NCBI RefSeq assembly: GCF_002252565.1
Contig: NZ_NPML01000013.1
Location: forward strand, 310,001 to 374,000
DNA length: 64,000 nt
Source: Petroclostridium xylanilyticum
Lineage (GTDB): Bacteria > Bacillota > Clostridia > SK-Y3
Direction of reading: 5' to 3'
The position numbers and the translations under genes were made by a program. Below the pieces are notes generated by a model that saw only the letters and a program-made list of their open reading frames with translations, did not search any database and was not told the DNA's origin. Of the stretch, positions 34,094 through 55,557 are shown piece by piece (positions within the stretch are counted from its first letter, which is position 1; every line of letters begins with the position of its first letter).

Positions 34094-34169
34094 TGGTGGG
34101 CACAATAGGGCTCGAACCTATGACCCCCTGCTTGTAAGGCAGGTGCTCTCCCAGCTGAGCTATGCGCCC
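34094..34169 (-). tRNA. tRNA-Val (anticodon TAC)
   Basis: The minus strand begins GGGCGCATAGCTCAGCTGG. The anticodon stem CCTGC/GCAGG encloses CTTACAA. The T arm is GGTTCGAGCC and the end is an encoded CCA. Confidence 0.96.
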
Positions 34170-34174
34170 TTAAA

Positions 34175-34249
34175 TGGTGACCCATAGGGGACTCGAACCC
34201 CTGTTACCGCCGTGAAAGGGCGGTGTCTTAACCGCTTGACCAATGGGCC
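34175..34249 (-). tRNA. tRNA-Glu (anticodon TTC)
   Basis: The minus strand begins GGCCCATTGGTCAAGCGG. The stem CCGCC/GGCGG encloses the CTTTCAC loop. GGTTCGAGTCC and encoded CCA follow. Six bases separate it from tRNA-Val. Confidence 0.96.
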
Positions 34250-34254
34250 ATATA

Positions 34255-34331
34255 TGGTAGCGGCAGACGGATTTGAACCATCGACACTACGGGTATGAAC
34301 CGTATGCTCTAGCCAACTGAGCTATGCCGCC
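34255..34331 (-). tRNA. tRNA-Met, elongator type (anticodon CAT)
   Basis: The minus strand begins GGCGGCATAGCTCAGTTGG. TACGG/CCGTA encloses the TTCATAC loop, followed by GGTTCAAATCC and CCA. The anticodon stem and D loop fit elongator tRNA-Met rather than initiator; a lysidine-modified Ile tRNA is less likely. Confidence 0.9.
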
Positions 34332-34514
34332 ATATTATTTTTATATTTTGTGAGTCAGAACATTATCTATTTTACCATAAATTCTTTATAAATCAAGTAT
34401 CAATTTATGGCAATTTAGCAGTTCATCAACTCTTAAAGCCGCTCTCACAAGCGACATGTTAAATTTTAATATAAATCGACAAAAAAGTCAATAGGGAATT
34501 TAAAATTTTTTGCG

Positions 34515-34570
34515 TATATCAAAGGTACGTATATCAAAGGGACGGTTCTTGTGATATATTCTTGTGATAT
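34515..34570. repeat. REP-like repeats, 3' side of the RAYT gene
   Basis: TATATCAAAGG is repeated, and the GGGACGGTTCT core at 34539-34549 is followed by two TTGTGATATAT copies. It is the inverted counterpart of the repeats at 35394-35468, so the transposase gene is bracketed. Confidence 0.75.
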
Positions 34571-34571
34571 A

Positions 34572-35345
34572 TTATGCTCTAATTATTATGTTATACCCTA
34601 TTCCTGTTATCCTCGCAATTTGTCTTATACTGCTTCCATCAATATCTTTAGCTTCACGTAGTATTCTATCCCGTTCCATTCTTTCCATCTGTTGCAAAGT
34701 ACTAATTGGCTTTCCTTTTAACATTTTTGTAATTTCTTTATATACTTCTTCATCACTAGCTCTTACATTTTTTTCATCTTCAAGACATCTGTCATCGTTT
34801 TCCTTCTCATTGAACTGACGAAATTTTTTTATGGCAGCCTTGTTATTTTCAGATAACAATCCCAGAGCAAAACTTGTTTGTGTTAAGCCCGGTAAATAAT
34901 CTTTCTCCCCATAATATGCACGGCAGCTGCTCCATTTGTACAGTTCCGGTTTTTTTACCATTCCCGCTTTTACTGGATTATTATGTATATAACGAATAAC
35001 TGTCATTAAATATCCATCGCTATTCACACACTCACTTTTATATCTATCCTGAAATACATGTCCAAAATGTTCATATTTCCAATTATACCAATATGCATAG
35101 CTTATTCCAATCCGCTTCATTATTTGCTCTATATGTTCTTTTCCTTCTCTTATTAATAAATGTAGATGATTTCCCATTAAACAGTAAGCATATATTTCAC
35201 AACTACTTTCCTTTTTTATCTTCTCCAAGGTTTCCAGGTATTTTTGACAGTCTTCATCATCATGAAAAATCTCCTGCCGGTTAATGCCTCTTACCATAAC
35301 ATGATAAATTCCGGTCTCGCTTCGCTTCCTTGCACTTCTTGGCAT
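34572..35345 (-). CDS. REP-associated tyrosine transposase (RAYT, Y1_Tnp)
   Basis: A 257-residue HUH nuclease of the IS200/IS605-related RAYT group. The catalytic HUH motif HLHLL lies in YCLMGNHLHLLIREG near residue 55, and the nucleophilic Tyr is in VIRYIHNNPVKAGMV near 115. A C-terminal helix-turn-helix (SSIRQIARITGIG) resembles a DnaA-type domain. I chose MPRSARKRSETG at 35345, which fits the family start; an ATG six codons earlier lacks a ribosome binding site. It is flanked by inverted GGGACGGTTCT repeats on both sides, and a lone related palindrome lies at 55486. It probably mobilises or maintains these repeats. A good promoter overlaps the upstream repeat. Confidence 0.92.
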   Translation of the reverse strand: MPRSARKRSETGIYHVMVRGINRQEIFHDDEDCQKYLETLEKIKKESSCEIYAYCLMGNHLHLLIREGKEHIEQIMKRIGISYAYWYNWKYEHFGHVFQDRYKSECVNSDGYLMTVIRYIHNNPVKAGMVKKPELYKWSSCRAYYGEKDYLPGLTQTSFALGLLSENNKAAIKKFRQFNEKENDDRCLEDEKNVRASDEEVYKEITKMLKGKPISTLQQMERMERDRILREAKDIDGSSIRQIARITGIGYNIIIRA

Positions 35346-35372
35346 ATTCTCCCACTCTTTCATTTTTCTCTG

Positions 35373-35401
35373 ATTATATCATAAGTCTATGTATATATCA
35401 A
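35373..35401 (-). promoter_or_regulatory. Promoter of the RAYT gene
   Basis: The minus strand has TTGATA (35396-35401), a 17-base spacer and TATAAT (35373-35378). The -35 box is part of the repeat unit TGTTGATATA. Confidence 0.7.
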
Positions 35402-35468
35402 CAGAACCGTCCCCTTGATATCTATATCAACAGAACCGTCCCCTTGATATCTTGGTCCCCTTGATATC
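35394..35468. repeat. REP-like repeats, 5' side of the RAYT gene
   Basis: Two tandem units TATATCAACAGAACCGTCCCC...TTGATATC (cores 35403-35414 and 35432-35443) and one truncated unit GGTCCCCTTGATATC (35454-35468). Confidence 0.85.
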
Positions 35469-35472
35469 TTCT

Positions 35473-36444
35473 TTATTGATTTTTTTCCACATTTAATTCA
35501 GGAATATCCTCTATCACATTTTCAGCATCCACAGTCTGTTCCTCTTCAATTTCTATGGTTCCAGTTTCCTCATCCCAATTAATTTTTAATCCTAAACTTT
35601 CAACAATAAATCTTAGTGGAACAACAGTTCTATTGTTAAGTGTTTCTGAAGGCACATCAATTTCAATTTCAACCTTATTTACGTATGCCAACTTACTTCC
35701 TATCTGAAGGACTATTTCTTTTCCTTCTTTAGTTATAGTTACCTTTTGTTCTTCTGCATTCCATTTGACATCTGCTCCAAATGCTTCAGATATAGCTCTA
35801 ACAGGTACCAATGTTCTTCCTGCTTTTATAACTGGCGGTGTATCAAATTTGATATTTACACCTTTAGTTATAATATTTTCTACTGGTATAACCCTAATAT
35901 CCTGGCCACTTGTTTGCAATTCTTCTGCTGTAAGCTCTAATTGTTTGAGTTCTTCACTTGTATATTTATTTTTTATAACTTCCTTCATTTGTTCTTTAGT
36001 TTGCTTCATTTGCTGTTTTAATGAATTTATTTCTGTTTTTATCTGTTGAATCTGTTGTAATAACTGCTCTGCCAACTCAAGATTTCCATTCTCTTCTGCT
36101 TCTTCATATTGTTTTTCTATGATATCTTTTTGTGCTTCTAGCTCATCTTTTTTCTCTTCTATTGCATCTTTCTCTGCTTCTAGCTTATTCTTTGCTTCTT
36201 CCCATAATTCGTCTTCATTTTCATCTTCGTCTTCATTCTCATCTTCATCTTCATTCTCATCTTCGCCTTCATTCTCGTCTTCATCTTCATTTCCAACATC
36301 TTGGCTATCTTGACTTTCTACAACTTCTTCTACTTTACTGTCTTTTTTAGAATCCTTAGCCATAACAGTAGTCGCTACGGTTGAGGTAAATAGAAATACA
36401 AAAATCATCAAAAATACAAACATCTTTTGAACTTTTTCCATCAT
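35473..36444 (-). CDS. Secreted coiled-coil protein with copper-amine-oxidase-like domain
   Basis: 323 residues. Residues 1-29 form a signal peptide (MFVFLMIFVFLFTSTVATTVMA). Residues 42-80 are almost wholly Glu, Asp and Asn in a short tandem repeat. Residues 80-160 form a charged coiled coil rich in Glu, Gln and Lys. The C-terminal half is a copper-amine-oxidase-like N domain pair (FDTPPVIKAGRTLVPVRAISEAFGADVKWN; LNNRTVVPLRFIVESLGLKINWDEE). It resembles clostridial cell-surface stalk proteins. AAGGAG precedes the ATG. It is monocistronic and lies next to RAYT repeats. Likely wall- or matrix-associated; no enzymatic role visible. Confidence 0.82.
   Translation of the reverse strand: MMEKVQKMFVFLMIFVFLFTSTVATTVMAKDSKKDSKVEEVVESQDSQDVGNEDEDENEGEDENEDEDENEDEDENEDELWEEAKNKLEAEKDAIEEKKDELEAQKDIIEKQYEEAEENGNLELAEQLLQQIQQIKTEINSLKQQMKQTKEQMKEVIKNKYTSEELKQLELTAEELQTSGQDIRVIPVENIITKGVNIKFDTPPVIKAGRTLVPVRAISEAFGADVKWNAEEQKVTITKEGKEIVLQIGSKLAYVNKVEIEIDVPSETLNNRTVVPLRFIVESLGLKINWDEETGTIEIEEEQTVDAENVIEDIPELNVEKNQ
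36209..36300. repeat. Coding microsatellite (acidic repeat)
   Basis: Short units of TCTTCATTC/TCATCTTCA type are tandemly repeated on the plus strand. They encode the Glu/Asp/Asn run of the 35473-36444 protein and could vary in copy number. Confidence 0.75.
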
Positions 36445-36770: not shown

Positions 36771-37676
36771 CTATGTCGTTAGTTCAGTATACTTAATTTT
36801 TTGCGAGGTGATGCAGCTATTAATAATACGATTAAATAACTCACTCTCAAAAAACCTACGGTTAAACCTATAGCAAAATTCGTCCAGGTATCGTTGCAAA
36901 TGCTTCTGGTCAAGGCCATGGAAAGTTCCAGCCACAAAAGCCTTTGCATTGGAGACAATGGTGTGAAGCCATTTCAAATGTTCTTCATTTTCTTTAGGAT
37001 TGAATACCTTGGCTTCAAGCTTATAACCTTCTGCTTGAAGGTTTTGGTAAGAGCTGTATGCGTCACTTGAAATGGTTGAGCCGGTTTGTACGTTTGAATG
37101 CGCAAATTCAGCTATAGTTTCTTTTTTCAGGTCGTTTACCACCTGCATTTTGAGAAACTGGGGATGACCTTCTTCATTAAGCGACAAACCTACCATTACT
37201 TTAGCTTTACTGGTCCCCCTGCCACGTTTACCTCCTTCGTCCGGTGAACCAAAATATGCATCATCCAGTTCTACCACACCGGCAAGCAGGTATTGTGAAT
37301 CCCGATCCTTCATGGCCTTACGGATTCTGTGGAGCATGAACCAGGCTGCTTTGTAGGATATTTCAAGCTCCTTTGAAAGCATCATGGCCGAACACCCCCT
37401 TTTGTCCCTTCCTACAAAGTAAATGGCCCAAAACCACTTTTCAAGCTTAATGTGCGTCTTCTCCATAACGGTACCTACTGTGACGGATGCTTGATAGTGG
37501 CAAGCGGTGCACTCATAGCGGTTTCTTGTTGAAATAACGTAATAGGTCTCGTTACCGCATTTAGGGCACTTAAAGCCATCAGGCCAGCGCATCTTAAAAA
37601 GGTGCTCCCGGCAAGCGTCCTCACTATTAAACTTATTCTTAAACTCCATGAAGCTTATTGCTTCTTGTTTAGCCAT
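36771..37676 (-). CDS. IS1595-family (ISXO2-like) transposase
   Basis: A 301-residue DDE-type transposase. A zinc ribbon at about 34-55 (FKCPKCGNETYYV...YECTACHYQAS) is followed by a helix-turn-helix region (CSAMMLSKELEISYKAAW) and the catalytic core (VVELDDAYFGSP; TISSDAYSSY; VSNAKAFVAGTFHGLDQKHLQRYLDEFCYRFNRR). The ATG at 37676 lies 9 bases after GGGAGG. The stop codon falls inside the left terminal repeat. No frame disruption is visible, so it may be active. A promoter at 37713-37741 drives it. Confidence 0.95.
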   Translation of the reverse strand: MAKQEAISFMEFKNKFNSEDACREHLFKMRWPDGFKCPKCGNETYYVISTRNRYECTACHYQASVTVGTVMEKTHIKLEKWFWAIYFVGRDKRGCSAMMLSKELEISYKAAWFMLHRIRKAMKDRDSQYLLAGVVELDDAYFGSPDEGGKRGRGTSKAKVMVGLSLNEEGHPQFLKMQVVNDLKKETIAEFAHSNVQTGSTISSDAYSSYQNLQAEGYKLEAKVFNPKENEEHLKWLHTIVSNAKAFVAGTFHGLDQKHLQRYLDEFCYRFNRRFFESELFNRIINSCITSQKIKYTELTT

Positions 37677-37712
37677 AGTCAACAACCTCCCGAACAAACG
37701 TTTGTAGTTAAA

Positions 37713-55485: not shown

Positions 55486-55557
55486 TATGCGACTGAGGAA
55501 CCGTCCCCATGTCGCGAAGGAGACGCGCGACAGGGGACGGTTCTCGGTTGTCGCATA
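55486..55557. repeat. Orphan REP/BIME-like palindrome with GGGGACGGTTC core
   Basis: Outer arms TATGCGAC/GTCGCATA, inner GAACCGTCCCC (55498-55508) and GGGGACGGTTC (55533-55543), with GTCGCG/CGCGAC at the tip. The core equals that flanking the RAYT gene at 34572. It lies between convergent murC and fabZ. Confidence 0.85.

Follow-up and report, generated by a model that had tools for sequence, protein, structure and literature searches.

The window, i.e., the whole analysed stretch of 64,000 nucleotides from Petroclostridium xylanilyticum, contains a small RAYT element at approximately 34513–35470, located between three tRNA genes (34094–34331) on one side and a gene ending at 35473 on the other. 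In this element, a gene encoding a Y1/HUH protein of 263 amino acids is bracketed by inverted GGGACGGTTC units with all the cores pointing inwards. One unit and one truncated copy were found on the 3' side of the gene, and two tandem units and one truncated copy on its 5' side (Table 1). The truncated outer copy on the 3' side reads CGTATATCAAAGG at 34513–34525, the inner arm of the 3' unit is duplicated at 34560–34572, and the truncated third unit on the 5' side leaves 2 nt between the element and the stop codon of the adjacent gene. A first-pass annotation had described an HUH gene between inverted units, with one core on the 3' side and two tandem units plus a truncated one on the 5' side, and this arrangement is confirmed here. 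It missed, however, the truncated outer copy and the duplicated inner arm on the 3' side, and its end points, 34515 and 35468, each lie 2 nt inside those found here.

The same core with another stem forms a non-autonomous doublet elsewhere in the window, where both cores, at 55498 and 55534, are exact matches. One more exact match (1298–1307) is situated within a long open reading frame that looks like ordinary coding sequence, and it is probably a chance occurrence and no repeat unit. A transposase gene of the IS1595 family, with a zinc ribbon and an ISXO2-like domain, lies near the RAYT element at 36771–37697 and is probably complete.

Table 1. Parts of the RAYT element and the non-autonomous doublet in the window
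Feature	Position	Strand
Truncated outer copy on the 3' side of the gene: outer arm CGTATATCAAA + GG, then TA	34513..34527	+
3' unit: outer arm ("tag") CGTATATCAAA, the complement of inner arm TTGTGATATA	34528..34538	+
Core GGGACGGTTC, 3' end of the element	34539..34548	+
3' unit: inner arm TTGTGATATAT with a partial duplication (TCTTGTGATATAT), extending to the stop codon of the RAYT	34549..34572	+
RAYT, Y1/HUH transposase, 263 aa; NHLH, YIHNNP, weak C-terminal helix-turn-helix	34572..35363	-
Inner arm TGTTGATATATA, gene-proximal 5' unit	35392..35403	-
Core, gene-proximal 5' unit	35404..35413	-
Outer arm AGATATCAAG, gene-proximal 5' unit	35414..35423	-
Truncated inner arm, second tandem 5' unit	35424..35432	-
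Core, second tandem 5' unit	35433..35442	-
Outer arm AAGATATCAAG, second tandem 5' unit	35443..35453	-
Truncated third 5' unit: outer arm AAGATATCAAG (35460-35470) + GGGACC (35454-35459)	35454..35470	-
Non-autonomous tail-to-tail doublet, same core, other stem (TATGCGAC...GTCGCATA)	55486..55557	.

The protein matches the Pfam family Y1_Tnp (61.8 bits, cut-off 23) and the NCBIfam model NF047646, REP-associated tyrosine transposase (82.9 bits, cut-off 80). Its HUH motif is NHLH, the catalytic-type Y-x-x-x-N-P motif is YIHNNP, and the residues H66, H68, Y125, N129 and P130 are invariant across 14 relatives. At the C-terminus, HTH_7, HTH_28 and HTH_23 give weak matches at residues 233–257 (E 0.002–0.008, below the curated cut-offs), and helices were predicted in the region 220–262. 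The AlphaFold model, built with 14 relatives, has a mean pLDDT of 77. The nearest PDB structure to this model is 4er8, the complex of the E. coli RAYT with a REP hairpin (TM 0.76 by target), followed by the transposases of ISDra2 and IS608; by sequence, 4er8 is the only plausible solved relative, with a weak E of 0.05.

The GGGACGGTTC core is highly repeated. With up to one mismatch, 9 matches were found in the window against 0.94 expected, and the genome assembly, consisting of 41 contigs, contains 217 exact copies against 3 for the reversed-pattern control. Among 193 inspected cores, 173 lie outside open reading frames of 120 aa or more, and the open reading frame cover of the loci concerned is 72%. 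In addition, 45 inverted core doublets with a spacing of 28–34 nt are present in the genome, and a 68-nt doublet folds into one long hairpin (−27.5 kcal/mol, z −9.6). The ATATCAA stem of the RAYT from the window recurs in doublets at C3:123827, C3:125097 and C7:88604, which is what spreading by this RAYT, or by close relatives of it, would produce. A second genome from the genus of G017 gave 0 doublets. In 60 relatives, searched with one genome per species, the median number of core copies was 19 in genomes having a RAYT relative and 2 in those without it (Mann–Whitney p=0.0002), and the reversed-pattern control gave p=0.79. Thus, both the genome-wide recurrence of the units and its connection with RAYT presence, which the first-pass annotation had put forward for checking, were confirmed by counting. 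Exceptions include G038 and G050, which carry cores without a detected RAYT; possible reasons are RAYT loss or divergence and incomplete genome sequences.

Each unit has the order outer arm, GGGGACGGTTC, inner arm. The complementary arm pairs in the window are GATATCAA/TTGATAT and TATATCA/TGATATA, and the pairs GTGACA/TGTCAC, GCGAC/GTCGC and CAATA/TATTG were found in other units of the same genome. Of 61 ends taken from 40 RAYT loci, 33 have at least five contiguous pairs between the arms, and 31 distinct stems were counted; 2000 permutations gave a mean of 10.3 and a maximum of 25. In the own genome, a stem of this kind was found in 62 of 137 cases (permuted mean 26.6, maximum 42 of 500 permutations). 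Shared ancestry somewhat inflates these tests, since permutation removes kinship only in part; the stems are nevertheless too varied for one inherited sequence. Folded as single-stranded DNA and compared with shuffled sequences, the two ends in the window gave z values of −3.2 and −2.9 and a GCGAC-type unit −4.2, but z was only −1.1 for a CACA-type unit taken from a relative, and no good stem was found at the L098 5' end and in L108, L111 and L112. These data indicate that the ends are stem-loops: the fixed core occupies the loop, and the stem, with its covarying arms, differs from one element to another.

Where both ends of one element are readable, their core variant is nearly always identical, and the variants differ between RAYT lineages, with 11 changes over the RAYT tree. 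The variants include GGGACGGTTC, GGGACGGTCC, GGGACGGGGTT, GGGACAGGTA, GGGACAGAT, GGGTCAGGC, GGGACGTGCC and others. The RAYT sub-lineage L352–L358, having the GGGGACGTGCC core, has ends with an inner hairpin GTGC...GCAC and no stem of outer and inner arms, and it appears to use this hairpin instead of the arm stem.

Many ends are preceded by tandem ladders, in which the outer arm together with a truncated start of the element is repeated ahead of a complete end, as in the 5' array of the window. An unseeded search found perfect tandem duplications in 86 of 379 core contexts and in only 4 of 634 nearby control windows. The left break is nearly constant: 63 of 77 distinct duplicated units start 7–13 nt outside the core, and their right ends vary. 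In a first count, seeded on the outer arm, 2 of 62 tandem copies fell outside the range of 6–13 nt. The base preceding the left boundary is A in 32 of 63 cases (background 0.34, p=0.004), which is a weak hint of a site preference. Microhomologies of 0, 1, 2 and 3 nt were observed in 35, 17, 8 and 10 events against 43, 22, 8 and 3 expected, i.e., near chance except for the excess at 3 nt.

This excess (10 against 2.7) is what speaks for passive replication slippage or template switching at the hairpin, which could have given rise to the tandem copies, and possibly also to the matched stems, without participation of the RAYT; in fact, hairpins and inverted repeats have a known tendency to cause template switching. 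However, slippage normally needs longer matching repeats, and 60 of the 77 events have only 0–2 nt of microhomology. The left breaks fixed at about 10 nt from the core, with variable right ones, also disagree with this explanation, and we consider it rather unlikely, although it is the most serious of the alternatives. A constant left break with no required homology is what would be expected if the enzyme bound the hairpin and nicked a set number of nucleotides away, and if the nick were then extended and resealed. Tentatively, and with some doubt, the ladders may be regarded as a natural record of RAYT chemistry, comprising repeated nicking at a fixed distance of about 10 nt outside the loop-borne core, short synthesis and resealing by the enzyme.

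In our opinion, the whole set of data is probably best explained by a small mobile group-1 RAYT/TIRYT element whose HUH protein acts on terminal stem-loops and makes the ladders by nicking, extension and resealing. The protein would recognise the terminal stem-loop on single-stranded DNA, with the lineage-specific core (GGGGACGGTTC here) held in the loop and the short stem formed by the inner arm and the outer arm, the latter comprising some 8–10 nt outside the core. Besides working in cis on the ends of its own element, it would act in trans on non-autonomous relatives, namely deletion derivatives of about 130–300 bp and REPIN-like inverted doublets. The nick is predicted at the foot of the stem, approximately 10 nt outside the core; the freed 3' end would sometimes be extended by a few to about 35 nt and then rejoined to the 5' end held by the enzyme, so that tandem copies of the outer arm plus a truncated element start would be left.

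The elements look mobile, because they are multicopy and have non-autonomous derivatives. The own genome contains six RAYT-like genes of at least 171 aa, plus fragments. Fifteen RAYT matches were found in G003, including seven near-identical copies of 275 aa at different places, one of them with a longer upstream reading frame, and Desulfosporosinus genomes contain full copies together with many internal-deletion derivatives. Direct target duplications were not apparent in the inspected copies, a provisional result, as the search for complete two-sided empty sites, with one genome per species, gave one-sided comparisons only. In the own genome, no clean site was found, only the rearranged copy L056 and recombined loci. 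In Desulfosporosinus, the flanks are usually part of further mobile or rearranged DNA, and informative comparison was confined to one side at a time. Viral contigs scanned with GGGGACGGTTCTNNTG gave mostly single matches consistent with chance and were therefore of no use for this purpose. No relative of the Pseudomonas element described below was found in E. coli genomes, and plasmids provided three records only. At the Desulfosporosinus locus L256, three RAYT or deletion copies begin where neighbouring multicopy sequences lose homology to other genomes.

The outer arm might alternatively be host target DNA selected by pairing with the inner arm, similarly to the guides of IS200/IS605 elements. 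Pairing of the arms above chance fits this explanation, as does the variation of the distal outer-arm bases among copies of one family. However, in two Desulfosporosinus comparisons (G063 and G093, one copy each), the homologous uninterrupted sequence of a sister genome lacks the outer arm and continues differently, all seven G003 copies have GTATATG at their 5' ends despite their different places, and the G061 copies keep end-specific outer arms (GACACAAG and GGCACAGG) although both their inner arms are TGTGTC. A host origin of the arm is therefore improbable. The two Desulfosporosinus comparisons and the GTATATG shared in G003 suggest that the outer arm, at least in its core-proximal part, moves together with the element. 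Its distal bases vary between near-identical copies, which the proposed mechanism does not account for.

Di Nocera et al. (2013; PMC3733652) gave the name TIRYTs (TIRtron) to RAYT-like genes having GGGGWSAS in their terminal repeats, and Quentin et al. (2018; PMC6006769) assigned most of them to TnpA-Y1 subclass 2.1, corresponding to RAYT group 1. By its features rather than by a tree, the element of the window best fits this group. It shares with TIRYTs a RAYT-like Y1 protein with a C-terminal HTH and Y-x-x-x-N-P, terminal inverted repeats starting with GGGG..C, and repeats dispersed as singles, dimers and clusters. Its core GGGGACGG differs from GGGGWSAS by one letter (G and not A at position 7); among the relatives, L035 from the same genome has GGGACAG(G), as do L101/L102, and one from Pseudomonas has GGGGACAG. 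Automatic and manual searches had found no REP-like sequences in subclass 2.1 (PMC6006769), whereas the ends considered here are stem-loops with covarying stems, and the tandem ladder with a fixed left break is undescribed in the cited RAYT papers. In L287, a Pseudomonas relative, the layout is the same, including a ladder, and the core sequence is GGGGACAGA; the end architecture is therefore probably general to group-1 RAYTs. The stem-loop reading, the pairing of core with enzyme and the ladders are thus added to the knowledge of TIRYTs. A literature search for the core string returned unrelated papers only, which is weak evidence of absence, as most subscription journals were outside its coverage.

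The first-pass annotation took the arrangement for that of a REP-generating system, which is well known in gamma-proteobacteria and less studied in Clostridia. Its RAYT-type gene, also indicated by the name of the NCBIfam model, and the abundant inverted repeats flanking it stood. In gamma-proteobacteria, such a classical REPtron combines a RAYT with palindromic REPs headed by GTAG. Similarly to the REP/RAYT systems of E. coli and Stenotrophomonas, there is a Y1 HUH protein related to 4er8 with inverted flanks, repeats of high copy number and inverted doublets, which resemble REPINs in their ability to fold as one long hairpin. However, the GTAG/GTGG head is absent at the stem foot of the three units in the window; GTAG-dependent recognition is described for RAYT groups 2 and 3 (PMC8266576). 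The core is not a palindrome, as had been supposed, but sits in a conserved loop above a variable, element-specific stem, and the length of the protein, about 260 aa, and its C-terminal HTH are those of group 1, for which PMC6006769 lists no REP. The REP-generating arrangement turned out to be an incomplete description, too: several related RAYT copies per genome, seemingly mobile, contrast with one resident RAYT per REP family, and one core is common here to doublets with many different stems in one genome, unlike in REPINs. Hence a classical REPtron is very unlikely. With IS200/IS605 elements (IS608, ISDra2), the HUH Y1 fold and the predicted single-strand chemistry are shared, but Y-x-x-x-N-P (YIHNNP) replaces Y-x-x-x-Q, the ends are inverted repeats and tnpB is absent.

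An immobile, domesticated RAYT whose hairpins serve the host as terminators or in mRNA stability would agree with the mostly intergenic cores and with the treatment of many RAYTs as domesticated in the literature (PMC8266576), but it is made hardly probable by genomes with more than one RAYT and RAYT fragments, by near-identical copies sitting in different locations and by the deletion derivatives.

If the mobile group-1 element acts as proposed, RAYTs of this group build repeat arrays through nicking, extension and resealing, and recognise a fixed loop with an interchangeable stem, which would explain why earlier repeat searches missed these sequences. The elements would then be a concrete and testable source of clustered palindromic repeats in Clostridia. 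The stem-loop ends would serve as ready assay substrates, and the ladders predict the cut position within a few bases.

Some 25 inspected loci, including L056, L057 and L082 (C7, C14), contain a composite repeat, an imperfect inverted repeat of about 150–250 bp (GAAACCAC...GAAAAAGTCCGGTTCAGCAGGAAGAAGGG), often with a 51-bp doublet at its centre. Local duplications dense in doublets were found in L083, L084 and L085 (C15, C17, C18:1-11000), where the left and right flanks are reshuffled and look like the outcome of recombination through the elements.
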